Below are positions 5,046 to 64,000 of a DNA stretch of 64,000 nt, one piece after another. Both the position numbers and the translations under genes were made by a program. The stretch is from contig OX485805.1 in assembly GCA_950295325.1 (NCBI GenBank), positions 58,242,758 through 58,306,757 on the forward strand. The letters run 5' to 3'. Each line of letters starts with the position of its first letter. Within the stretch, counting starts at the first letter, position 1. Origin of the DNA: Polytrichum commune (Eukaryota > Streptophyta > Polytrichopsida > Polytrichales > Polytrichaceae). Below the pieces are notes generated by a model that worked only from the letters and a program-made list of their open reading frames with translations, was not told where the DNA came from and made no database searches.

Positions 5046-5748
5046 GAAGGAGCTTAGTAGATAGCCTACCTAATTAGCTCATAGACAAGTAGTTAGTTAC
5101 ATTATGCTAGTTAGTGTTATGGTGGCTTTCACAAGTAAATGTATTTGAGATTGACTATAGAGAATAGTGTTTTTTTAACACTTGCATCCTCTCTTTAAAA
5201 ATAAACCACGTGCACAAATTAATGGAGAATGTGGAGCACTCTCGCGATGGCAAGACAAAGGAAGCAAAGACCAAAGGTGCGAGGGAGAGATTGACATAAG
5301 TCACATAAGTATTTCTTAATACTTAAAGGCTTATGTACGGTATGGAGACACCAAGTGAGACCTCTTATAGTAGCGATACGGAATACACAAGTGATAGTTC
5401 AAGTGGTAGTATAGAGTCAACGGCACGGACTCCATTTAGGAGAGGGATATCCTTAAGGGCTTGTGTAGCTAAAGCGGCCGGATGGACGTTAGAAGCAAAC
5501 AAAGACAAAATAGCACCCGAGCATAAGGAGGTTAAAATAACATAGTTAACTTGTGCATTCTCCACATACGTATTGAAATTGTACATTGAGTTGTTAAAAG
5601 TGAAATTCCAGTTAAATCCAAGATCACTTGAAGGGTGAACCTTGCACTATGGACTCATCCAAGTCCAAATCCAATACCGCGGAGGAATGTGAGCCCAAAC
5701 CCACTACTCGGACTACGGACGCTTAAGGGTGGGGGGTTTGGCCTCACA

Positions 5749-12227: not shown

Positions 12228-13200
12228 TGTCGCAACCCTTGCTAACCCCCTTAGTAATCTTGCCAATTTTCAATTCTAGCAAAGGTTACGAGCGCTAACC
12301 ATTCGCATTCCGCCATGCTAATGGTTAGCTCCTCCTACCCCGGACCTTATAGTTCATAGGAGGGAACCAACCCTCCTACTTTGCTTTAGGGACTCACCCC
12401 TTAATCGGTAACCCATTCCTAGATGTGGACTTCCATCCATGGAAGTCCAATCCCATGTTGATCATCGCGTTGCCGGAACAACACTACAACAACCCGAACC
12501 ATACTAGGCAAGTATGGCCTCACATTGGGCCAATGCCCATGGAGGCCGTGCCGTTCGGCCTCGGGTGGGTGAGGCCACACCACCTCACCCATATAAGCCT
12601 CTAGGACTCTACGCGGGGCCCCTACCCCACCGTCAACCAACCTCTTGTCTCTCTACCAAGAGTTGGGGCCAAGTGGACATTTTCCTTTAGCTGCTGGGCC
12701 TAGAACCCCCCCAGCAGCTTCAGACCATCATAACTTCCTTGTATGATGTCTGATCATAACAACCAACCACTCCATCCTCATCTACGCCTCACGTAGATGC
12801 CGATGGACTCCTCACTTGCTCCATTTGAGCAAGTCTTGAGGAAGTTATGCCTGTTTGAAGCTTGGCAGTCCCGGGAATCACTCCCAGGCACTGCTGTAGC
12901 AGGGCGCTGTCCCGGGACAGCGCCCCACTCAAATGGCCATAACTCCTAGCTCACACCTCCGATTGAGGTGTTCTTGAGCATTCTAGAATCACCACGCCAT
13001 GAGCTACGCATAACTCATGGCCTTACCCTTGTGCCTCCTAGTCTTCGTGGGCGGGAGGCGTTCCCAACGCCCGGGGCCCTCACCCACACTAGGATCACTT
13101 GGGCCCTCTCACCAACGGCGCCACAAGTCCCGGGTGTCACTCCGGGGTCCCCCTTGTGCCCATGGTGTTTCGGCCACTCCTCATGGAGAGGTGGGCGACA
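12228..13200 (-). mobile_element. Solo LTR of the TGTCGC family inside the gypsy integrase
   Basis: 973 bp from TGTCGCAACCC to GGGCGACA, flanked by AAGAT at 12223-12227 and 13201-13205. No internal sequence is present, so this is a solo LTR left by LTR-LTR recombination after insertion. It separates the first and second catalytic Asp of the gypsy integrase. It must be younger than the gypsy insertion, which itself appears recent. Confidence 0.95.
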
Positions 13201-46438: not shown

Positions 46439-47413
46439 TGTCGCGCACCTCTCCATGAGGAGTGCCCGAAACACCATGGGCACAAGGGGGACCCCGGAGT
46501 GACACCCGGGACTTGTGGCGCCATTGGTGAGAGGGCCCAAGTGATCCTAGTGTGGGTGAGGGCCCCGGGCGTTGGGAACGCCTCCCACCCACGGAGACTA
46601 GGAGGCATGAGGGTAAGGCCATGAGCTATGCGTAGCTCATGGCGTGGTGATTCTAGAATGCTCAAGAACACCTCAATCGGAGGTGTGAGCTAGGAGTTAT
46701 GGCCATTTGAGTGGGGCGCTGTCCCGGGACAGCGCCCTGGTACAGCAGTGCCTGGGAGTGATTCCCGGGACTGCCAAGCTTCAAAGAGGCATAACGTCCT
46801 CATAACTTGCCCGAATGGGGTAAGTGAGGAGTCCATCGGCATCTACGTGAAGCGTAGATGAAGATGGAGTGGTCAAGTGTTAGCATCAGACATCATACAA
46901 GGAAGTTATGATGGTCTGAAGCTGTGGGGGCTTCTAGGCCCAGCGGCTAAGGGAAAATGTCCACTTGGCCCCAACTCTTGGTAGAGAGACAAGAGGTTGG
47001 TTGACGGTGGGGTAGGGGCCCCGCGTGAAGTCCTAGAGGCTTATATGGGTGAGGTGGTGTGGCCTCACCCACCCGAGGCCGAACGGCAAGGCCTCCATGG
47101 GCTTTGGCCTATTGTGAGGCCATAGTTGCCTAGTATGGTTCGGGTTGTTGTAGTGTTGCTCCGGCAACGCGATGATCAACATAGGAGTGGACTTCCATGG
47201 ATGGAAGTCCACATTGGGGAAATGGGTTACCGATTAAGGGGTGAGTTCCGAAAGCAAAGTAGGAGGGTTGGTTCCCTCCTATGAACTAATGGTCCGGGGT
47301 TAGAGGAGCTAACCATTAGCATGGCGGTATGCGAAGGGTTAGCCACTCGTAACCTTTGCTAGAATTGAAAATTGGCAAGATGGTCAAGGGGGGGGCTAGC
47401 AAGGGTTGCGACA
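46439..47413 (+). mobile_element. Solo LTR nested in element D
   Basis: 975 bp with AGCTT at 46434-46438 and 47414-47418. Inserted into the 56-bp repeat zone of D, opposite to D. Confidence 0.95.
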
Positions 47414-48229
47414 AGCTTGGTACCACCAATTCACATTGTAACATTCCGTCCGCGGCCCAAACATTATATGGATTAGTAGCATAAAACCAACTTCTAACAT
47501 TCCGCATACGGCACAAATATGATTTGGCTTGGTACCACAAAGCCACCTTCCACATTGTGTCCGCGAAACGAGCATGATTTGCCTTGGTGTAACGGCCACA
47601 CTACTTATGCCCATTTCCTTGAGACCTCTTTCGGCTAAACCCACTTCATGGTGGTACGCCGTCGAATTTCTTTTTAGGACCATCGACTTCAATGTTCTTC
47701 AAATCTTAAAGATTCCCGATACGTCCTCAAGAAGCTTTGGGGACTCGGACATGGAATTCACCACCCGCTTTTGAATTCCCACCTAAAACGATGCATGTCT
47801 CACAAGGTCGTCCATTTTAGGTGTATCCTTCACTTGTGCGTTTGAATAGCGCACATAGGCCTTAAGAGGCCCCGGGTGCCTCATTTGCACCAATTCCAAC
47901 ATCACCACCTTTTAAGCATTTCAAATTGGAATTTCAATCCAAAATTAATACCCTCCAAGGTTTAAGGTGCATTCGGTATTCTAGGCCCCAAATACTTTTG
48001 GAGGTTTGTGGGAGCCCTTTTCAAAGCACTCCTTCATTTTCCTTACCGAATCCACCTTAGTGCCCACCATTGTCATTAGAACCAATGGTATGGTCAAACT
48101 CCACTTGCACATGATCCTTGTTCCAATTTAAGCCTCACAATCTTTTGGAAACCACGGGCTCACCATCACAACCTGCATTTTTTGATAGCCATGTTTCCCT
48201 CAAAGTGCGAGCTCAAAATTTGGAACCCT

Positions 48230-48241
48230 GCTCTGATACCA
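48230..48241 (-). other. Primer-binding site of element D (initiator tRNA-Met)
   Basis: TGGTATCAGAGC on the minus strand, two bases from the 5' LTR. Confidence 0.9.
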
Positions 48242-48243
48242 AG

Positions 48244-49218
48244 TGTCGCAACCCTTGCTAGTCCCCCTTGACCATCTTGCCAATTTTCAATTTTAGCAAA
48301 GGTTACGAGCGCTAACCATTCGCATTCCGCCATGCTAATGGTTAGCTCCTCCTACCCCGGACCTTATAGTTCATAGGAGGGAAACTAACCCTCCTACTTT
48401 GCTTTCGGGACTCACCCCTTAATCGGTAACCCATTCCTAGATGTGGACTTCCATCCATGGAAGTCCAATCCCATGTTGATCATCGCATTGCCGGAGCAAC
48501 ACTACAACAACCCGAACCATACTAGGCAACTATGGCCTCACAATGGGCCAATGCCCATGGAGGCCTTGCCGTTTGGCCTCGGGTGGGTGAGGCCACACCA
48601 CCTCACCCATATAAGCCTCTAGGACTTCACGCGGGGCCCCTACCCCACCGTCAACCAACCTCTTGTCTCTCTACCAAGAGTTGGGGCCAAGTGGACACTT
48701 TCCTTTAGCTGCTGGGCCTAGAACCCCCCCAGCAGCTTCAGACCATCATAACTTCCTTGTATGAAGTCTGATCATAACAACCAACCACTCCATCCTCATC
48801 TACGCTTCACGTAGATGCCCATGGACTCCTCACTTGCCCCATTCAGGCAAGTAATGAGGAAGTTATGCCAGCTTGAACCTTGGCAGTCCCGGGAATCTCT
48901 CCCAGGCACTGCTGTACCAGGGCGCTGTCCCGGGACAGCGCCCCACTCAAATGGCCATAACTCCTAGCTCACACGTCAGATTGAGGTGTTCTTGAGCATT
49001 CTAGAATCACCACGCCATGAGCTACGCATAGCTCATGGCCTTACCCTAGTGCCTCCTAGTCTCCGTGGCTGGGAGGCGTTCCCAACGCCCGGGGCCCTCA
49101 CCCACACTAGGATCACTTGGGCCCTCTCACCAACGGCGCCACAAGTCCCGGGTGTCACTCCGGGGTCCCCCTTGTGCCCATGGTGTTTCGGCCACTCCTC
49201 ATGGAGAGGTGCGCGACA
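48244..49218 (-). repeat. 5' LTR of element D
   Basis: 975 bp, the partner of 33944-34918 by shared private variants. Right flank TTCTT. Confidence 0.9.
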
Positions 49219-49317
49219 TTCTTGTTCTAAATACCCGACACAAAGTGTTCGCATCTTACAACTTTCTCCAATATGTGTTCCATTTATCCTTGTTCTTATT
49301 TATGTGAATGTCTCAAA

Positions 49318-50490
49318 ATGCCCAAAAAGTCTCAATTTAACAAATATAGTGTTACAAGGTGGACGTCAGCATTGCGCACTTGGGTGAAGTGCGCCTTCCA
49401 TACCCACATGAGGCAGGTGTCGCAACCCTTGCTAGGTCCCTTAATAATCTTGCCAATTTTCAATTCTAGCAAAGGTTACGAGTCGCTAACCCTTCGCATT
49501 CCGCCATGCTAATGGATAGCTCCTCTTACCCCGGACCAATAGTTCATAGGAGGGAACCAACCCTCCTACTTTGCTTTCGGGACTCACCCCTTAATCGGTA
49601 ACCCATTTCCCCAATGTGGACTTCCATCCATGGAAGTCCAATCCTATGTTGATCATCGCGTTGCCGGAGCAACACTACAACAACCCGAAGCATACTAGGC
49701 AACTATGGCCTCACAATAGGCCAAAGCCCATGGAGGCCTTGCCGTTCGGCCTCGGGTGGGTGAGGCCACACCACCTCACCCATATAAGCCTCTAGGACTT
49801 CACGTGGGGCCCCTACCCCACCGTCAACTAACCTCTTGTCTCTCTACCAAGAGTTGGGGCCAAGTGGACATTTTCCTTTAGCTGCTGGGCCTAGAACCCC
49901 CCCAGCAGCTTCAGACCATCATAACTTCCTTGTATGATGTCTAATCATAACAACCAACCACTCCATCTTCATCTACGCTTCACGTAGATGCCGATGCACT
50001 CCTCACTTGCGCCATTCGGGCAAGTCTTGAGGAAGTTATGCCTGTTTGAACCTTGGCAGTCCCGGGAATCACTCCCAGGCACTGCTGTACCAGGGCGCTG
50101 TCCCGGGACAGCGCCCCACTCAAATGGCCATAACTCCTAGCTCACACCTCTGATTGAGGTGTTCTTGAGCTTCCTAGAATCACCACGCCATGAGCTACGC
50201 ATAGCTTATGGCCTTACCCTTGTGCCTCTTAATCTTCGCGGGTGGGAGGCGTTCCCAACGCCCGGGGCCCTCACCCACACTAGGATCACTTGGGCCCTCT
50301 CACCAACGGCGCCACAAGTCCCGGGTGTCACTCCGGGGTCCCCCTTGTGCCCATGGTGTTTCGGCCACTCCTCATGGAGAGGTGCGCGACAGCAGGGGAC
50401 CAATTGGTAGTTGAGGATGTGGTAGGAGGCAGCACATTGTGGAATGAAAGGAATTTGAGAGCTGCATGATTTCAGCCACATATCAAGCAG
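49318..50490 (+). pseudogene. Candidate exon split by a solo LTR
   Basis: The open frame MPKKSQFNKYSVTRW... runs from 49318 to 49417 and, after removing the solo LTR and one GCAGG, continues in frame from 50397 to a donor at 50491 (CAG then GTAGAA). Three stops interrupt the second part (TAG 50408, TAG 50423, TGA 50456), each compatible with CAG, CAG or CGA. The sequence has many Trp and Cys residues (RTWVKCAF, NW). Family not recognised. It may belong to the gene at 52560-55543. Confidence 0.35.
49418..50391 (-). mobile_element. Solo LTR, minus orientation, left arm of an inverted pair
   Basis: 974 bp with GCAGG at 49413-49417 and 50392-50396. It faces the plus-oriented LTR at 50728 across 336 bp. 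About 690-740 bp of the inner parts share unusual variants (CTTCCTAG, TCTTAATC, TTCGCGGG, GTCTAATC). Confidence 0.94.
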
Positions 50491-50727
50491 GTAGAAGATG
50501 TAGTCCATGAACAATGTGAACCCTCTCCCCCCCATTTGAACATGCCCATGTATTTTGTTTGGACCAGAAAAATAAAACATCATATAGCACATGTCTTTTC
50601 TGCGTGCTTGCCACTGTCATATTGAAAGTGTGGATGTATGTGGTGCACACTGGCTTTAAAAATGTTGTGAATGCAAACTCTGCTTGGTGTGGTGGGGTTA
50701 CCTGAAACATCGAGCTGCTGCTCCGTG

Positions 50728-51704
50728 TGTCGCGCACCTCTCCATGAGGAGTGGCCGAAACACCATGGGCACAAGGGGGACCCCGGAGTGACACCCGGGA
50801 CTTGTGGCGCCGTTGGTGAGAGGGCCCAAGTGATCCTAGTGTGGGTGAGGGCCCCGGGCGTTGGGAACGCCTCCCACCCGCGAAGATTAAGAGGCACAAG
50901 GGTAAGGCCATAAGCTATGCGTAGCTCATGGCGTGGTGATTCTAGGAAGCTCAAGAACACCTCAATCAGAGGTGTGAGCTAGGAGTTATGGCCATTTGAG
51001 TGGGGCGCTGTCCCGGGACAGCGCCCTGGTACAGCAGTGCCTGGGAGTGATTCCCGGGACTGCCAAGGTTCAAACAGGCATAACTTCCTCAAGACTTGCC
51101 CGAATGGCGCAAGTGAGGAGTGCATCGGCATCTACGTGAAGCGTAGATGAAGATGGAGTGGTTGGTTGTTATGATTAGACATCATACAAGGAAGTTATGA
51201 TGGTCTGAAGCTGCTGGGGGGGTTCTAGGCCCAGCAGCTAAAGGAAAATGTCCACTTGGCCCCAACTCTTGGTAGAGAGACAAGAGGTTAGTTGACGGTG
51301 GGGTAGGGGCCCCACGTGAAGTCCTAGAGGCTTATATGGGTGAGGTGGTGTGGCCTCACCCACCCGAGGCCGAACGGCAAGGCCTCCATGGGCTTTGGCC
51401 TATTGTGAGGCCATAGTTGCCTAGTATGGTTCGGGTTGTTGTAGTGTTGCTCCGGCAACGCGATGATCAACATAAGATTGGACTTCCATGGATGGAAGTC
51501 CACATCTAAGGAGTGGTTACCGATTAAAGGGGTGAGTCCCGAAATCAAAGTAGGAGGGTTGGTTCCCCTCCAATGAACTAATGGTCCGGGGTTAGAGGAG
51601 CTAACCATTAGCATGGCGGTATGCGAAGGGTTAGCGACTCGTAACCTTTGCTAGAATTGAAAATTGGCAAGATGGTCAAGGGGGGGCTAGCAAGGGTTGC
51701 GACA
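50728..51704 (+). mobile_element. Solo LTR, plus orientation, right arm of an inverted pair
   Basis: 977 bp with flanks CCGTG (50723-50727) and CTGTG (51705-51709), one mismatch apart. The outer 270 bp differ from the left arm and resemble the LTR at 46439-47413. Confidence 0.9.
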
Positions 51705-52626: not shown

Positions 52627-52648
52627 TTTACGAACGCTCGTTCGTAAA
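52627..52648. repeat. ACGAACG palindrome 1
   Basis: Perfect 10-bp arms TTTACGAACG / CGTTCGTAAA around CT, in the first intron of the HAD gene. A second, less perfect copy follows at 52703-52720 (centre CA). Confidence 0.95.
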
Positions 52649-52748
52649 GTTCATCTCAACTTGTCTTGGGTTTTGATGACATTGTTTCTCGTCGTTGATG
52701 TTTATGAACGCACGTTCGTATATTCTAACGTATTTGCTTGGATCTCAG

Positions 52749-54200
52749 ATGCTGGGGCTGGTCGTCAACAGCTTCATTGACGCCATCGACGAGGAGGACT
52801 TCCAGGTGCACAGGGCAAAGGCCTCCACGATGGACCTGGAGGATATGTCCCTCCCGAGGACGGACATCAACATGCCCGTCGACGAGGGCATGCCCGCCAT
52901 GGAGACGGACGACGACGAGCCCGCGCCCTCCTACAACGTCGAGGCGATCCTCTGATCCTTGGACGTCACGCCTCTGCGAATTTTGGGGCCGTCGGGAAAC
53001 CCATCCGATGTGCAGGGGACTCCGGGTGGATACACGGGGTCGTCCGCGGGGACAACCCAAGATGTCCTCCCCGCGCGAACGTCTGGGGCGGAGGCATTCG
53101 ACACTCCCGGGGGATGCTCGACATCGGTGTCGCCCAGGCCAGTCGTGGTTCCCAAGATGGAGAACCTCGACCTTCTGGACCAACGCTCCCGCCCGTCGTT
53201 GGACCACTTCCGCAACACTAGGCGGAAGATGAAGAAGACCCCCTATGTGGATCTGCCTCCGGGGGCAATCATCGAGGTCTCCGACGAGGACGAGGGAGAT
53301 ATGGAGATAATGGTCGAGCTGGGGGTCGACTTCGACAAGAACAAGCGGGTCAAAGAGGAGGCCCTCTCCGTCGCCGAGCTTAACGCCAAGCTCGAGCAGA
53401 AGATGAAGGAAGACATGGCGAAGGCTGCTGAGGAGAATGCGAAGAAGATGAGAGCAATTCAGGAGGAGCTAAGGCAATCCAACGAGAAAATGGACGCCAT
53501 CTTCGCCATGCTCAACAAGATGCAGAGCTTCTCGGCGCCCCCCCAGCCGGCTTACCCCTTCCCTGGAGGATACCCATCGCAATACCCCCCACCGGGCCAG
53601 TACCCCCCGCAGGGCCATTTCCCAGGAGGACCATCACACCACTCCGCGCCCCACCCTACGCCTGTTGGGACTCCTCTGCCCCCAGAAGTTCCCTCGACCA
53701 CCTCCCACGATGCTGTCGCGGCGGCCATCCAGGAGGACGAAGATTTACGAACGCGCTTTCGTGAATCTTCAGGTCCTGCAGCCCTCACCCCTCCCCCTTC
53801 AAGGGTAGGACTGCACTCAGACACTGACACAACATCTTTCACCGTCGTCCCCAGGGTAGTAGAGAGACAGGGCGATGACTCTGTGCGACACATTGACATG
53901 GTCATTGTGGAGGACACGCAGGGGAGCCCCAATGACGCAGCAGGAGAGTAGGGGATGGACGTGGAAGAGACCCCTGCCGCGTGGATGGAGGATGTCCGGA
54001 TGGACGCGCTCGACATGGGCGCCGAGGATGACAACGTGCTGCGCATCCAGCAGACACAGGCCTCTCAGTTGGAGTGTGAGGCCGACGCCATGGAAACGGA
54101 GGCGGCTACGGCTGTGGAGGTTACGAACGCGCGTTCGTTAATCGTTGAGGAGGGACCTGCTGCTCGGTCCAGCGCCGCTGCCCCTCCCCCCGATGACGAG
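52749..54200 (+). CDS. Exon 2 of the HAD gene: coiled coil and Pro-rich region
   Basis: The acceptor CTCAG ends at 52748 and the donor is GTAAAT at 54201. It starts MLGLVVNSFIDAIDEEDFQ; the ATG at 52749 could be the true start. The middle coiled coil holds KMRAIQEELRQSNEKMDAIF and the low-complexity part has YPFPGGYPSQYPPPGQYPP. Stops at 52953-52955 (TGA) and 53949-53951 (TAG). Two ACGAACG palindromes (53740-53769 and 54123-54138) lie within the coding frame, encoding DLRTRFRES and VTNARSL. Confidence 0.6.
53739..53770. repeat. ACGAACG palindrome 3, inside coding sequence
   Basis: Fifteen-base arms with two mismatches around CG. It is the longest copy and lies in the open frame of exon 2. 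Confidence 0.9.
54123..54138. repeat. ACGAACG palindrome 4, inside coding sequence
   Basis: A perfect 16-base palindrome with centre CG, in the open frame near the end of exon 2. Confidence 0.93.
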
Positions 54201-54775
54201 GTAAATCTCCTCTGAGAATACCATTTTTTGCAAACGCGCGTTCGTAACCTCACTAACATCGCAGTGTTTTTCTCTTCATCGACACCCCCTGGCCCAAGCG
54301 TGCCCTCTTCAGCGACCCCCCTTATGGACGACCAGTTTTGTAGGACATGGCATCATTTTGCCTTAGGAAAATGTGATAGACTATCACGTGAGAAATGTAA
54401 ATATTCAACAGATTAATATATGGGCCCATGTTATCTGCATCGCATTGCTTCAAATTTTGTGCCCTCCACCCCTTCTCGTATATTGTGGATGTTGATGCGA
54501 TTATGTTCATTCTTGTATATCCACCTCATTCACAAACGCTCGTTCGTGAAAGGGTGCGGCCCCGTGTCCACCTCCTTCACGAACGACCGCTCGTAAATGC
54601 ACCGCCCCCCGCAGCCTTCATTCACGAACGGTCGTTCGCAAGTGTGCCCTTGTGCACATTTTCCTTGCACTCTCCTCATTTCCTCGTCTTTTTCCATAAT
54701 GCATCGTCTTCATTTTCTACGCAAAAATTTCATTATTGGATCATAGCATTAAACTAGTCGCGTTGTTCATCACAG
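54201..54775 (+). other. Intron of the HAD gene with four palindromes
   Basis: Begins GTAAAT and ends ATCACAG. Holds ACGAACG-type palindromes at 54231-54245, 54529-54550, 54576-54597 and 54621-54642. Confidence 0.6.
54529..54642. repeat. Three ACGAACG palindromes in one intron
   Basis: Copies at 54529-54550 (centre CT), 54576-54597 (centre AC) and 54621-54642 (centre GT). Starts are 47 and 45 bp apart. A further copy lies at 54231-54245. Confidence 0.92.
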
Positions 54776-55543
54776 GACCCCCCGGAGATAGGTCGCAACC
54801 CCTCGACCAGTGGACCTCACACTTGGAACAAGCCTTTCGTAGTTTTTGACCTCAACGGGGTCTTGTGTCACACCCAACACATCCCTAGGGTTCCCACGCG
54901 TCCCTTCCGTCACCCCGACGAAAGGAACTATGACGGCGAGCTCGACACCCTCATAAACCGCAAGGCTGTCCGCGCCCGTCCCAGCCTGCGGGACTTCCTT
55001 CGCGAGGTGGTCGAGTTCGCTCACGTCATTGTGTGGAGCTCCATGGTCATGGAAAATACAGAGCCCATCGTCCACTTCTTGTTCCGCGATCTCCCGAGCC
55101 CGTGCCTCGTCCTCGGCCAAGAGGACTGCGACGAGCTGCTCGACGACAAAGGTCAACCGGTGCCCAAGTTTGGCGGTCGGGGCGGAGGACAACAGTTCCT
55201 CAAGGTCCTCCGCTCGAGACTCTGGCGAGGCATCCCCCGTCTGCAAGGGATGCCGCACGGGTGGTGGCCGACTCCTGAGAACACCCTCCTCATCGACGAC
55301 AGCCCCACCAAGAGCGTCTTGAACCCCCCGGGAAACGTCATCTTCCCGGACACATGGACCGGCGATAGGCAAGACACATTTTTGGTCGATAGGCTAGCCC
55401 CCTACCTTAGAAGGCTCGTGCTCCACGCCGGTAGCATCCCATTTTTTGTTAGGTCCAACCCCTTCGGCAATGCGGCACTAAGCCCCCGCGATAATGTATA
55501 TAAGAGCATCATGAGGCTCGCCAAACTCAATAAATTGATTTGA
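54776..55543 (+). CDS. Last exon: FCP1/NLI-like HAD phosphatase domain
   Basis: 255 codons and a TGA. Motif I is VVFDLNGVL: the first Asp of the DxDx(T/V) signature is present and the second is Asn. Motif II-like VIVWSSM follows, then an invariant-looking LLIDDSPTKS (motif III/IV Asp pair) and VIFPDTW. This order is that of FCP1/SCP-type phosphatases, which act on phospho-Ser such as the RNA polymerase II tail. DLNG or DING variants exist in plant and fungal HAD families as I recall, so the Asn may be typical of a subfamily, though it should weaken acid/base catalysis. An ORF caller start at TTG 54863 is wrong; the domain begins further upstream. Confidence 0.75.
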   Translation, partial: DPPEIGRNPSTSGPHTWNKPFVVFDLNGVLCHTQHIPRVPTRPFRHPDERNYDGELDTLINRKAVRARPSLRDFLREVVEFAHVIVWSSMVMENTEPIVHFLFRDLPSPCLVLGQEDCDELLDDKGQPVPKFGGRGGGQQFLKVLRSRLWRGIPRLQGMPHGWWPTPENTLLIDDSPTKSVLNPPGNVIFPDTWTGDRQDTFLVDRLAPYLRRLVLHAGSIPFFVRSNPFGNAALSPRDNVYKSIMRLAKLNKLI

Positions 55544-56662: not shown

Positions 56663-57705
56663 TGGGTCGGACTAGTGTGACTAGAAGCGTACTAGTGGGA
56701 CGGACTCCCTAAATGGGCTTAGGTGTAGAACATATTTAAGTGCTTACTTTCTATGCTATTCCAAGTTACTCAAGACATTGATGGTATTTCCATTATAATT
56801 GTATTTCAATCCCAATTAATTCATTCAACTTACATTCATTCTTCGCATCTTCCCTTCCATTCATTACGAGTTGTCATTTCATATGCAACTATTTTCATGT
56901 ATGCCTCACATTTTTGTTCACTTCCATGCCTTTATGTATAATAATAGTAGCATACCATTATACATATGGGATTTTTAGTCGTCATTACTGGTCCAATTTT
57001 GAAATGTGCATCCTTATATAGTCTCATAATCAACAAAAAGTCTCCAATTACTGAATATAGTGTTTAATTTGTGAGCGGTGAAGAAAACAAAATATTTGGT
57101 AATAGGACCCCCTAGTATCCTATAACCGTGGCCTAAAGAAATAAATTTTTAGGGTTCAATAATAAGAAGATTGGGGAGGACAAACAATATGAATGCTAGA
57201 TTGCAAGTAGTGAGCAATGAAAAATACCAATATGTACATGACTCGGGGTTGCTAGTATGTGAGCATGCGAGTGTGAACCTGTGAGCCTTCAATTTTTTCC
57301 CGGTTATGGTTTGTAAATCCGTTGGGGGCCTATGATTGGGGAATTATATGTAAGGGTCTATAGTCCAAATGAACAACAAATGAGAATGTTGCTATAACAA
57401 TTTTGTATAAAAAATGAACTAATATACATTCAACTTTTGAAATAATAATAATGTAATTGGAGACAATGTGTAAGCAAACTCATAATGAAAACAAGTATAG
57501 CATGTTAGAATGTCTCACTGTAATACACATCAATGTAAAATTTGAATACATCATAACACCATCATGAGGGTGATAGTTACGAAGTGCAAAACATAAAGAA
57601 CAACAAAATTGAATTGTAGATATAAATTGGGTAGTAGGTCTAAATTGTTGAAGTTCTTGGAAATCAAATATAAAAAATAAAAAATAATGGGCCCATGATC
57701 CATAC
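56663..57705. other. AT-rich stretch, nothing recognised
   Basis: About 1 kb with no supported gene, RNA or clear repeat. The GC drop against 52.7-56.6 kb is abrupt. Confidence 0.5.
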
Positions 57706-58014: not shown

Positions 58015-58049
58015 TTGCTAACATCCAAAGTTTTTTTTGAATCAAACAT

Positions 58050-58105
58050 TATATTCGTTAAATTGAGACTTTCTCTAGTTTCAAATTAATATATGGATCA
58101 AACAA
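58050..58105 (+). repeat. 56-bp direct repeat, left copy
   Basis: Begins TATATTCGTTAAATTGAGAC and ends GGATCAAACAA. It recurs at 63331-63386 with two or three mismatches and lies on the other side of the DUF7869-like gene. Confidence 0.85.
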
Positions 58106-58576
58106 CATTCCGTGTTCCGAAACTATATTGAGAACGATCTCAAATATATTATATGTTCTAATATCCCAAATCTATTATGTGTGGACATAAGCACATGTGG
58201 TAGAGCACTCAATACCAACTTCATCTACAAAAACACTTTGGGTAGAGCACTCCAAACTAGTTTCACCCAAGAAACATATAAACTGATTTCTATTATTAGC
58301 ATGGTCAATAAAATATAGACATTGCAACATACAAAGTGCATGCAATAAATGCATTTTTCTTCAATGGAAAATTTAGTCCCAAACTTAATAAAAAAAATGA
58401 ACTTCACAATTGTATTGAAATATAGTAAATGGATATTCATCCAACCCCAAACAATATAGCATTCGCAAGTTCTACCCAAACTTTGCCCCAAGTTTGAGGA
58501 GCACACATATGAGTAATATATATTCGTCAAATTACAGTTTACACTATAATCATGCTAACACAATCCTACCAACTTC

Positions 58577-60063
58577 TCATTCAACGTGGGTTGCTTCTTC
58601 TGCGATCCGAGCAAGGTTGTATTTTGCAAAAATTATGTACTTTTGAGGGATGGACACTGATCCACTATGATTTTTCCGTGGTTTCCATGCTATGAATATG
58701 GAATCTGTATCTACCCAAGATGAACCGTGCTCGGAATCCACCTTCCACCGAAAGTTAGGGTTTGTATCCCAGCCTGTATAATGCCGAACAACATCTTTAT
58801 TCCGTGCTGTCGGTCGGTAGTACTCTACTTGTATTTGTCGAAAATGAGGGCTGGAAGTTACAAAATTTGGTTTGGACAAAGCTCTTGCCACCCACACTGG
58901 CTTTGCATATGTCTCATCTCCAGGACGCAAAATGAGCATATAACCTTCATGACAATTCACTGCAATGCGGAAAGATGGTGGCGGACGACTACTAGCAGGC
59001 CCCACGTAATGGTCGTCCACATCAAACTCCTCTCGCACCTCTCCATTTCCCAAAAGACTAGCTTCCGAAGCTTGTACATTGACACGTGTTTGTGGCCAAA
59101 ACCCATGCCTTAAAGTAAGGGGTGTATCTTGATGAAGGTTTGCCAATGCGCCACGAACACGTGTCTAATATTGTATCCAACTTCCGTAACGAAGCCAACA
59201 CGATCCACCAACATCCGCTACCCTCAAACTCTCCCAATATTGTATGAAGCCTGATATGCCTTTACAAATGTCCTCCAAATTCTTCATGGGTATTGGTTTG
59301 CAAGGCTTAGGCTCTCCGTCAGGCAACATCGTCCTTCCTTCCCCATCAACACGCCATACAAGGAGACCCTCCGGCGGGCTCCAATCTTGTGATGTGCACA
59401 ACAACTTGTATTGCATGGCGGGGACACCATCGTCACGCACGTAGAACCGAAATTGTTGTGCCTTCGTATGCCCGATCAATCGGTGAGCTCCGCTTCGAAT
59501 ATACGGTTCTATAAATGCCTTGAAGTCTGGAACCTCCTCGATCATATGGGGGATGACGGGAATGTTCTCCAAATCCATGTACGACTTCATCAACAATGGG
59601 ATTGTTGGAAAATCCTCCTCGCGCAACTTCATGCTCCACCGCCCAAAGGACGCATCAATATCATCGTGCGTATGGCCTACCAATAGAAAGGACACAAAAA
59701 CCTCCTTGAAAATGCCTTTCGCAACCAACAACGACCAATATGCAAAAACATATCTACTTTTATTGTCCTTCGCACAATTGTCCAATTGGACACGCAGAGT
59801 TGGGGGCAACTTCTTGGCAATCACATCTTCACTTGGTGGCTCCGGCAATGAGTGCACGCATACATCTCTTCCATCCAAGACCGCTTCATATAGAGGTGTT
59901 GATCCCGAGTTTTCAAATAACAATCTTGATGAATAGGACGGCGGTTTCTCCAAATCACGTAAAAGCTTTGCAAATGACCCTATCGTGTGGTTTGAATCCG
60001 CCGGATACAAATCAAGAGCATAATGAGCATATTTGACATCACCATGTCCATGTGCAATCATTC
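58577..60063 (-). CDS. DUF7869-like gene, exon 2
   Basis: Starts in phase with exon 1 (G then GA ATG). It contains the conserved LRVQLDNCAKDN, YVFAYWSLLVAKGIFKEV and FLLVGHTHDDIDASFGRWS, whose Asp and His pattern suggests an RNase H-like nuclease fold (inference). TAG at 59165-59167 follows SWIQY. The frame goes on for about 190 more codons (FRQIQVEYYRPTA, SWVDTDSIFIAWKP) to a TAG at 58577. Confidence 0.7.
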
Positions 60064-60201
60064 CTGCAAAGGCGACCCAATGGTTTAATATTCAACTATA
60101 ACACCAAAAAATTCACATGGTGTACATGTATGGCCCCAAGTACAAACCTAAACGCACAAATTTGTGTTTAGGTAATGCAATGCAATTGTTATCAAAATCA
60201 C

Positions 60202-61666
60202 CTGTAACCGAAACAGGAAGCTTAAAAAGGCCGTCCGTGGCTTTGATTCGATTTGCAAAACATGGTGAGGCTATTTTGGCATGGTCCATTTTGTCATGGA
60301 TGATTGTAAGGACTTCCAAAGGCCTGGAGATGGAAAAAACTCTATTTGTGTAGTAATCATTACGGTGTGCCTCTTGCATGTTCACATGCTTGAAATAGTT
60401 CATTTGATGTGCGGCATAGGACTCTGTCCCCATCGTGTGTGCATCTCGAAGGCGTTTCAACTTCTCGCATTTGGAACAACGGGCAAATTTGTCGCCTCGT
60501 CTTTTTGTGATGTATTCACTAAAGTGAGATTTTTTGATAGCACTCAGTTTCGACAACGAAATTGGGTCCAACCCGGCCTTCTCGCCAACTGCGTTTACGT
60601 CCAACAATATGTCTTTCCATTTCGTGCCTGTAGGAAGAACCTTCTCCACAACCTTTTCACCGGTTGCGAGTGTGCGTGTTTTGTGCGGCATTGCATCGGC
60701 AAGGGGGACAATGATGGTTGCCAAAGTGGCTGTTGCTTGTCTCGTTGTTTCTCTTGGTTTCTTTAAGCCCATGTTCCCATGGTGACGGGCACGGCGGCCT
60801 TCATTGGCATACGCGGCTTGTCTTTAAAATTCCGCTTTCGACACACCATGAATGGTGTACCATGCCGTACAACACACGTCTATGCTCTCAAGGGTGATGA
60901 CCTTGCGACCCGCTCCGTTCACATGTATCGCCCTATGGACATCAAGTTTTTTGGTGGATCTTAGACGGAAATCTCCAAGCCACATTTCTTCACGGATGGC
61001 CTTCAATTTATCTCTTGGGAACAATTGGCAACAACGATGTACACAACAATCCTTCATAGCAACTTCTCTAATAGACTCCTCACAGAGCAACCTTTGACGT
61101 TTACACTTATTTGCAGACGGAGTAGGACGTGTCAATGTTTCGTACTTCCGAAGGCCTTTGCGTGGCCGAATGTTTGCTTGGAGCTCCTGTTGGATTTGGA
61201 CGTGTCGTCGCTCATGGTCGCGCAAGCTAACCCCCTCAATTGTCACATTCCTCAACGGCCACCTTCGCAACGAGAACCTATGAGTTGGATTGACTTCCGA
61301 ATGTACGAGTGATTCTAATATAACAACTCCAACGTCCTCGGTGCCAAGGGGGTGTTCATCAATGCAATCTTGTGGATGTGTGTTACGACAAATACCCTCC
61401 GCCACAGCAACTCCACTGTCATTAACAAGTACCACATCCAAATTCACCCATGAAGCTCGTGAAAGCCCCGCACATTCCACAATGGGGCAAAAAGGATCAG
61501 ATGGCGAAGGACTCCCCAAATGACCTTCATCTGCACTGTCATCAAAACTATCCTCCCCGACAATGTCTAGTTCATCCCCATACGGAGATTGGGTGCTGCC
61601 CATGTCTTCAGAGAAGGAATCCCCTCTTCCACCAACTTCCTCCATTACGCCTACACACATGCACAT
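60202..61666 (-). CDS. DUF7869-like gene, exon 1
   Basis: 488 codons from ATG 61666, which reads MCMCVGVMEEVGG; the second Met at 61642 may be the real start. Cys-rich block around DCCVHRCCQLFPRDKLKAIR (near residue 200), then VCCTAWYTIHGVSKAEF and a TAA at 60824. The frame continues open with RQAAYANEGRRARHH to the donor at 60201. The Cys-rich and CSKCEKL motifs could bind metal. The stop sits where family members, as I recall, continue through GIS-type sequence. Confidence 0.65.
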
Positions 61667-61846
61667 GAAACCTCAACAAACATGGACACAACGTAAGGGT
61701 CCAAAAGAATCAAATATTGGAAAATGCAAAACATCACGATGAATGGGGACACTGAGGATCAAGACATTTGCAACACAAATGCAATGTGAGCTCCCAATAC
61801 TGTGCGCCAGTCCACAAAATGTTCCACAAAATATTTTGGGTGGGAG

Positions 61847-62567
61847 TTTGGGTCGGCCGACCTAAACCCTGTGGCACCAGGGATTGAGGGCCATCTCCAC
61901 CTTGCCCGTGGGATAGGGTCGGGTTCCGGTCGACCGACTCAAACCTTGTACAATGATGGGTTGAGGGCCATTTAGAATTCCATCACACTGTGGGGAAAAC
62001 TTTGGGTCGAGCGACCCAATCCTTGTCATGGTCAACTACAACCGCCGAAGCTGGGGAAGGGGTTTGGGTCGACCGACCCAAACTTTCACAGGGTAAACCC
62101 ACCCACACTCAGAAGGGGTTTAGGTCGGTCGACCCAAACTTTCACAGGGTAAGTCCACCCACACCGGGAAAGGGTTTGGGTCGGTCGACCCAAACTTTCA
62201 CAGTGTAAATCCACCCACACTGGGATGAGGTTTGGGTCGCTCGACCCAAACATTACATATGATGGGATAAGGTTCCTACTCTGTCCGTCCAAACCTTCTG
62301 AGTACCTTGGGTAAGGGCCATTAACAATTCGTTCACGATGTGCGAAAAAGTTTGGGTCGACCGACCCAAATCTTCTAAAAGGTTTTACGATAAACGCCCA
62401 CAGTGGGGTAGGGGTTTGGGTCGACCGACCCAAACCTCACAAGGGTCAGAGTAGACCCCCCCCCCCAACACTAGTGAAGGGGTTTGGGTCGACCGACCCA
62501 AACCTCACAAGGGTCAGAGTAGACTCCCCCCAACACTAGTGAAGGGGTTTGGGTCGACCGACCCAAA
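61847..62567. repeat. Array of 11 palindromes TTTGGGTCG-NN-CGACCCAAA
   Basis: Twenty-base inverted repeats with 9-bp arms and a 2-base centre start at 61847, 61924, 62001, 62063, 62119, 62175, 62231, 62351, 62415, 62483 and 62548. Centres in order are GC, AC, AG, AC, GT, GT, CT, AC, AC, AC, AC. The copies at 62063, 62119, 62175 and 62231 are exactly 56 bp apart. The array lies 180-900 bp upstream of the DUF7869-like gene, on the side of its presumed promoter. Confidence 0.95.
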
Positions 62568-62599
62568 CCTCACAAGGGTGAGACTAGAACCCGCCCACA

Positions 62600-63241
62600 C
62601 TAGTGTCGACCGACGTATAATGCGGCGTATAATGCAGCGGATATTGAGAGGTGTGTGGAATTTCAGCTCATTGCAAAGTTCACTGCGGACTTGCATGCTG
62701 TGGATAGGTCCTCATGAACAGCAGCGTGAACGAACCTCGAAGTACAGCTCCGACTAAGAGTTCTCTCTACGAATTCAGGTGTGGGAGAAGAGCAAAAAGA
62801 AACCAACTTTTGGGGGGTGCGCCCCTTTATACTATCCACCTCCACTTGCCCGACTTCCTCATTGGATGCCTTTCCCGCCTTGTTATTTCAAACGTCCTGA
62901 CAGAATTCCCCGTTTTCTGTTTATTGTAGAAAATGCGCATCTTTCAATGCCCCTCTCATACCCCAGCCGTCATATGATTTAGTGTATGATATTTAATCTT
63001 TTTTTGGTTTTGTGTGTATATGACATACGACATTGGGAGGAAGGGTGGCGGCCACATTAATTTTTTCAAGTGTCACAACGGTATATTTTAACCAATATGT
63101 ATACCCAACCACAACTCCATTCAATGCTTTCAAGTGCAAACCTATTTCGGTGGGGTTGGGGCCATTTGGAGGCTGCAATTATGAGAGAGTTTCCAAGGCT
63201 TGAGGCCATTGTCATGATGAATAAAATTATTTATTTGTCTC
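62600..63241. other. Flank of the palindrome array, no gene
   Basis: A degenerate half copy (GTCGACCGACG) lies near 62605. After that I see no supported gene, and the short open frames have no domain. Confidence 0.5.
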
Positions 63242-63274
63242 CCCTAAACCCTAAACCCTAAACCCTAAACCCTA
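63242..63274 (+). repeat. Short interstitial telomere-type repeat
   Basis: Four CCCTAAA units plus CCCTA. Shorter runs follow near 63688-63706 and 63884. This is the plant-type telomere unit, but too short to be a telomere. Confidence 0.9.
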
Positions 63275-63330
63275 GAACATTGCTCTATTATCTCGCATGG
63301 AAGTGTGGCAATGATAAACGTATGTAACAC

Positions 63331-63386
63331 TATATTCGTTAAATTCAGACTTTCTCTAGTCTCAAATTAATATATGGATCAAACAA
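63331..63386 (+). repeat. 56-bp direct repeat, right copy
   Basis: Partner of 58050-58105, in the same orientation. The region up to 64000 also has a repeated CTCGCATG-AAGTGTGGCAATGA segment (near 63293 and 63725) and is otherwise AT-rich without genes. Confidence 0.85.
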
Positions 63387-64000
63387 AAACTTCTACAATG
63401 TCACCCTAATGCATCATATACATATTAAATGATGATATTGATCTACTTTAATTCAAACATTACGGTATGGCATTAACCAATATGTAGACAAAAGAAGTCT
63501 AAACATTGTGTAACGCCTTATGGTAAGAGTCACTAAATACAATAGTTAAAGTGGTTATGAAGATCCTCGCAAGGGGAATTATTAATTTTGAAATCAAATT
63601 ATGTCATGACAAAGTTCATTTATTGTTCCAAATCTGAATTTGCAACAATGCAAGTGACAAGAGCTTTTATATATAATATGTTGTCATCCCTAAACCCTAA
63701 ACCCTACAATATTGTCCTCTTCTCTCGCATGCAAGTGTGGCAATGACGAATGTATGTGGACGTCGATAAGGGGATACTAACTACCAATGTCGCTTTTTAG
63801 TTCAATATTTCCATGCTAATTGAATCCATCCTCAAGTTCACTTCAAGCTTACTAATGTGTGTGAACAAAACATCCAAAGTTGAACCCTAAACCCTTATAA
63901 CATCCACAACATGAAATTATACGTATTGACTAAACCATACACCAATTAGTATATCATGTTTAGACGTTCCAAATAACATATTCACATGATCAAGATTGTG

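Follow-up and report, generated by a model that had tools for sequence, protein, structure and literature searches.

We analysed a 64,000-nucleotide stretch of the Polytrichum commune genome (contig OX485805.1, forward-strand positions 58,242,758 to 58,306,757; hereafter the window), which carries an array of 20-bp palindromes of the form TTTGGGTCG-NN-CGACCCAAA (two 9-bp arms around a 2-bp centre; hereafter alpha) inside a DNA transposon encoding a DUF7869 protein. The palindromes keep a 9-2-9 geometry and conserved arms, and they occur in the transposon's 5′ regions, in its inferred introns and in its coding sequence. We lean towards the view that they serve as family-specific address tags, recognised by a homodimeric DNA-binding protein that the transposon itself encodes, and that their role is regulatory, most likely anti-silencing. 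Such a protein would bind the palindromes in the 5′ regions and introns of its own element and control the element's expression, most likely by keeping the element out of host silencing. The candidate binder would be a co-encoded protein with predicted ParB-like and methyltransferase (MTase)-like folds.

The alpha array and its transposon

Scanning the whole window for alpha with up to three mismatches gave 11 matches, all within 61847-62567, of which seven were perfect, three had one mismatch and one (at 61924) had three. Dinucleotide shuffles gave a mean of 0.03 matches and at most one, and the array described by the first-pass annotation is thus real. The centres of the 11 copies read GC, AC, AG, AC, GT, GT, CT, AC, AC, AC and AC, the same five dinucleotides as listed earlier, and the reported 56-bp period of four copies is exact (62063, 62119, 62175 and 62231), while the last four copies are spaced by 64, 68 and 65 bp. 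The first open frame of the DUF7869 gene is on the minus strand with its ATG at 61666, and the array lies on the 5′ side of this gene.

By comparison with three further loci, followed by a search for the ends, the array was placed in the interior of a 15,943-bp element that starts at 58045 and ends 9,987 bases beyond the window. Its terminal inverted repeats (TIRs) start with AACA(C/T)TATATTCGTTAAATTGAGACTTT, and perfect 4-bp target duplications (ATCA for the window copy, TTAT and AAGT) flank all three copies whose two ends were read; the left end of a fourth copy (copy A) was looked for and not found. With TIRs and a target duplication of fixed length, the element is a TIR DNA transposon. Its frame 59165-60061 matches PF25273 (DUF7869; E 2.8e-41), and the product of this gene is presumably the transposase. 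The plus strand carries a multi-exon second gene and then a NIF/CTD-phosphatase-like gene.

Some further observations concern the array and the element. The spacers between alpha palindromes are almost free of CpG (observed/expected 0.078) while the palindromes retain theirs, and this differs among arrays (window, L010, L013, L014, L047, L051 and L053). The interior of the element also holds a 95% copy of its own left end (63326-63386 and 63242-63274), near (CCCTAAA)n and a 70-bp repeat. A small unrelated transposon with the ends TTGTGAGCC and GGCCTCACA interrupts one alpha palindrome, where the insertion is accompanied by the 3-bp repeat TCG; at another place it sits within a DUF7869 gene (L017:5450-7725; L014:534-2051).

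Placement, conservation and distribution of the palindromes

Introns of the second gene were inferred from open frames and GT-AG signals. In the window copy, the region 5′ of this gene holds three exact alpha sites, one with four mismatches and one with a single mismatch, the last ending 27 bp ahead of an acceptor-like junction (TTTGCAG/ATG). Inferred intron 1 (GAG/GTGAGT ... TGCAG) holds six exact sites and inferred intron 2 (ATG/GTAAGT ... TGTAG) two; two more lie in the third-exon open frame, where they encode FGSTDPN and FGSPDPN, and one lies 11 bp past the stop codon (L009:7260, in the sequence following the window).

Conservation was measured by aligning four elements over their right part only, from the 5′ region of the second gene to the right end, with sites of up to two mismatches taken from the first-named element of each of the six pairs. 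Identity was 97-99% in the arms, 36-86% in the centres, 61-91% in the 40-bp flanks and 79-95% in the rest. For the diverged pair W-C, the arms agreed at 236/238 positions (99%), the centres at 11/26, the flanks at 400/660 and the rest at 5405/6734 (80%), which bears out the earlier remark that the sequence between copies is less conserved than the arms. Single sites outside arrays were exact in all four aligned elements.

The centre was 2 bp long in all 169 exact alpha pairs. A genome-wide search with centres of 3-12 bp returned 172 matches, and among the 50 places listed all were one 29-bp hairpin of another repeat, TTTGGGTCGAGC-AAAAT-GCTCGACCCAAA (L057:1529, L058:1056), or a near variant of it. 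The centre had been described as variable; it does differ between copies, but no pyrimidine-purine centre occurs among the 169 exact copies read (31 clusters), and the 38 exact copies with such a centre in the whole genome are all CA/TG. The alpha centre is therefore restricted, neither free nor neutral. The first-pass annotation had proposed either sites for a dimeric protein or recombination sites with the crossover at the centre. Recombination is not supported, because the centre varies from copy to copy and also where corresponding sites are compared. Sites for a dimeric protein are the most plausible class of explanation, given that the copies go with DUF7869-type loci and that it is the arms, not the flanks, that are conserved.

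Perfect inverted repeats, several of them in inferred introns near splice signals, could also act as RNA hairpins or DNA cruciforms, for example in the splicing of the introns that bear them. A G-U pair is kept on the strand read in 5 of 10 two-mismatch and 14 of 37 one-mismatch sites, as such a structural role would allow, but a Watson-Crick compensated pair was found in none of the 10 two-mismatch sites. The absence of compensated pairs, despite some G-U, favours reading by a protein without proving it. Since, in addition, arm sequence is conserved beyond mere complementarity, the largest arrays lie 5′ of the gene and the centre length is invariant over the 169 pairs, we regard a structural role as very unlikely.

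The window also holds a 5′-truncated sister element, ending at 57064, with a different palindrome, TTACGAACG-NN-CGTTCGTAA (beta; 0-3 mismatches). Its intron, tail-exon and after-stop beta sites match the site positions of the alpha element, so that a switch of motif at corresponding positions is visible within the window. This switch, together with the occurrence of the same arms with different spacers across loci and the exactness of the single sites in all four aligned elements, largely contradicts a plain satellite-like expansion without function, which we consider the least probable explanation of all, even if local periods of 32, 56, 64 and 78 bp do point to tandem duplication.

Of 1,491 candidate DUF7869 places in the genome, 150 were scored, and the upstream stretches of 24, chosen non-randomly to span score and frame length, were read. 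At least three copies of a palindrome were present in 19 of the 24 loci, compared with 0 of 240 dinucleotide shuffles. Six motif types were found: TTTGGGTCG at 3 loci, TTACGAACG at 2, TTACGGACG at 4, CCACGGGTG at 7, CCACGGGCG at 2 and GGTGAGGCA at 1, with one type per sampled locus. The geometry was 9-NN-9 in all six, except for 2 of 31 exact CCACGGGTG pairs that had no centre. In the five loci that lack an array, the match to the DUF7869 profile starts at position 5-8; of the six loci with such a start one has an array, compared with 18 of 18 others. TTACGRACG palindromes had 5,107 exact places in the genome and the reversed control none.

The genome searched comprises 408 Mb with plant-type CCCTAAA repeats. 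Alpha with at most one mismatch and any centre occurs at 12,519 places in it, and the reversed pattern at none. The 100 matches listed correspond to 92 places, all exact, in eight loci of contig C1; three loci are DUF7869 elements and five are copies of a different transposon, and none of the 100 lies outside these two kinds. Five arbitrary 10-kb stretches contained no alpha site. The arm pair is linked to DUF7869 loci, and it also occurs in a second, unrelated transposon. This second transposon has the TIR GAGGGAAGCTATCTTATGAGC, 10-bp target duplications in both copies whose two ends were read, and alpha arrays with a period of about 32 bp. In one copy (copy G), arrays separate two open frames of a large gene on the minus strand and also lie where a DGNHR-motif gene starts; a later frame in another copy showed weak similarity to DNA methylases (PF01555, E 0.021, below the cut-off). 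Pfam named no transposase family in its frames. We call it Mutator-like only tentatively; that group has target duplications of 8-11 bp, TIRs and a MULE transposase.

These data bear on two further alternatives. In maize En/Spm, the protein TNPA binds subterminal arrays of short element-specific sites, and by analogy the DUF7869 protein or a helper might gather the transposon ends via the palindromes, that is, a transposase acting on its own end, as the first-pass annotation had put it. We consider this unlikely. In the window copy, the left TIR is 3.8 kb from the nearest site with at most one mismatch and 4.0 kb from the nearest exact site, and the right end is 2.7 kb from the nearest exact site, with no site of at most one mismatch nearer; the strong sites are thus internal, not subterminal as in En/Spm, although both systems have arrays of short element-specific sites (with a binder only proposed here). 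Palindromes also occur in inferred introns and in the coding sequence of the second gene, the right ends of the alpha and beta elements are 26/30 identical although their palindromes differ, and alpha is common to two transposons that differ in their TIRs and in the length of their target duplication (4 and 10 bp). What speaks for end-gathering is that the arrays adjoin the DUF7869 gene, that four copies have degenerate sites with 3-4 mismatches near the right end, and that the window copy has a four-mismatch site 192 bp in from its left end; these degenerate sites strengthen the transposase alternative and slightly weaken our own reading.

The palindromes might instead be sites of a host transcription factor, exploited for expression by both kinds of transposon, which would account for alpha being common to unrelated transposons and for sites in 5′ regions and introns. 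The genome holds at least six different motifs, one type per sampled locus, and none of the 100 alpha matches listed lies outside the two transposons, so that a host factor also seems improbable to us.

Candidate binder and known systems

The candidate for an element-encoded binder is the product of the second gene. Pfam reported no family above cut-off in the exons scanned, but the folds predicted for this gene are ParB-like, by a fold match to the ParB N-domain, and like N6-adenine methyltransferases: residues 243-465 of the second exon have a predicted fold resembling M.BceJIV, CcrM, MTA1 and RsrI, which we take to be N6-adenine DNA methyltransferases of the beta class. Such enzymes usually carry the catalytic tetrapeptide [DNS]PP[YFW]. 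This element protein, unlike them, lacks it; any [DNSE]PP[YFWHL] word occurs in only 2 of 78 homologues (EPPY and EPPH), and [DN][YF]RxxP is present in 73 of 78. Since the usual tetrapeptide is missing, catalysis by the MTase-like domain is doubtful.

Several observations weigh against our reading, besides the degenerate sites near the ends and the retained G-U pairs. The ParB model has a pTM of 0.39, and for neither model did Foldseek by itself return a match at E≤0.001. Five of the 24 DUF7869 loci had no array in the stretch read, a ParB/MTase-like gene was not found in 9.8 kb read upstream of DUF7869 at one sister locus (a delta locus), and two beta arrays (C1:640865-641986 and 644984-646098) are separated by a stretch, of which 3.1 kb was read (L059, C1:641900-645000), in which no element gene was recognised. 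Comparison of single sequences with profiles in hhalign detected no homology between the ParB-/MTase-like parts of the two transposons that share alpha (probability 0.9% and 0.2%); that both use one element-encoded binder is therefore not established, and the sharing may instead reflect a host factor or one-way parasitism.

How transposons escape silencing without activating all others is an open question, for which we know of only one well-studied plant example, VANDAL/VANC of Arabidopsis; VANDALs are Mutator-like, and a VANC protein is characterised by binding to its motif and by removal of DNA methylation. This anti-silencing system would be the closest working analogue of the proposed tags. 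It has been described for VANDAL21/VANC21 and for VANC6 (PMC5735166, PMC10398659). VANC is encoded by the transposable element, with short motifs arrayed in the element's own introns and intergenic parts; the motifs vary between related families, and one family's motif is also found in the unrelated element AT9TSD1 (PMC5735166). The motifs are 9 and 8 bp long (YAGTATTAY and AGTTGTCC/AC), and a search of that text for the word palindrome gave no hit (PMC5735166). Both systems have family-specific motif arrays in non-coding regions, including here the inferred introns, and both have a motif shared with an unrelated element, AT9TSD1 there and the second transposon here. The differences are that our sites are 20-bp 9-NN-9 palindromes, belong to DUF7869 elements and also occur in coding frames, and that the candidate protein has predicted ParB-like and MTase-like folds.

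In the bacterial systems ParB-parS, Noc-NBS and KorB, ParB proteins act with clustered palindromic sites, through an HTH domain and with the use of CTP. The likeness lies in the predicted ParB-domain fold and the clustering of palindromes; here, in contrast, the setting is a eukaryotic transposon, and an MTase-like domain appears to follow in the same gene. It is conceivable, as a more tentative extension of our reading, that a ParB-fold protein with a probably inactive MTase-like domain loads at the family-specific palindromes, spreads over the element and marks it as self, so keeping it open, that sister families switch palindromes to avoid cross-talk, and that unrelated transposons acquire the tag for shared protection. 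If the ParB-like protein is the binder, bacterial-type clamp-loading logic might act on nuclear chromatin. One genome appears to hold many parallel tag types, alike in geometry, next to a candidate binder with recognisable folds, which would make the coevolution of tag and protein directly testable.

Features of the window

Coordinates of the alpha element and the truncated beta neighbour are collected in Table 1. The beta site at 54121 shares its frame with the one at 53745 but lies behind a stop (53949-53951), and its coding status is uncertain.

Table 1. Positions in the window of the alpha element, its sister element and their palindromes
Feature	Position	Strand	Remarks
Two beta palindromes	52628..52721	.	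52628 perfect, 52702 with 2 mismatches; inferred GT-AG intron of the neighbour's methyltransferase-like gene
Beta palindrome, 2 mismatches	53745..53764	.	Within open frame 52959-53951; encodes DLRTRFRE
Beta palindrome, 1 mismatch	54121..54140	.	Open frame 53955-54215; reads VTNARSLI
Beta palindrome, 2 mismatches	54228..54247	.	Just past stop at 54215; alpha counterpart 11 bp after its stop
Three degenerate beta palindromes	54530..54641	.	54530, 54577, 54622; 2-3 mismatches; ahead of NIF-like gene
NIF/CTD-phosphatase-like open frame of neighbour	54863..55543	+	PF03031, E 4.6e-12; 44% identical to alpha element's copy
Right end of 5′-truncated sister	57035..57064	+	26/30 identical to alpha element's right end
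Left TIR of 15,943-bp element	58045..58072	+	ATCA before; right end at L009:9987, ATCA after
In-window part of DUF7869 element	58045..64000	.	Continues into L009 (past window end)
Degenerate alpha-like site, 4 mismatches	58237..58256	.	192 bp inside left end; may be chance
DUF7869 gene region	58577..61666	-	Frames 60824-61666, 60113-60772, 59165-60061, 58577-59146
Alpha array, 11 palindromes TTTGGGTCG-NN-CGACCCAAA	61847..62567	.	5′ region of DUF7869 gene

Elsewhere in the window, four repeats of about 975 bp in mixed orientation occupy 46439-51704, with 135 bp of the right end of the element copied at 49219-49354. Two perfect 20-bp palindromes, GCGCTGTCCCGGGACAGCGC and GACTTCCATNNATGGAAGTC, are repeated over 396-51481, often about 475 bp apart, and GACTTCCATNNATGGAAGTC also occurs with a variable centre.
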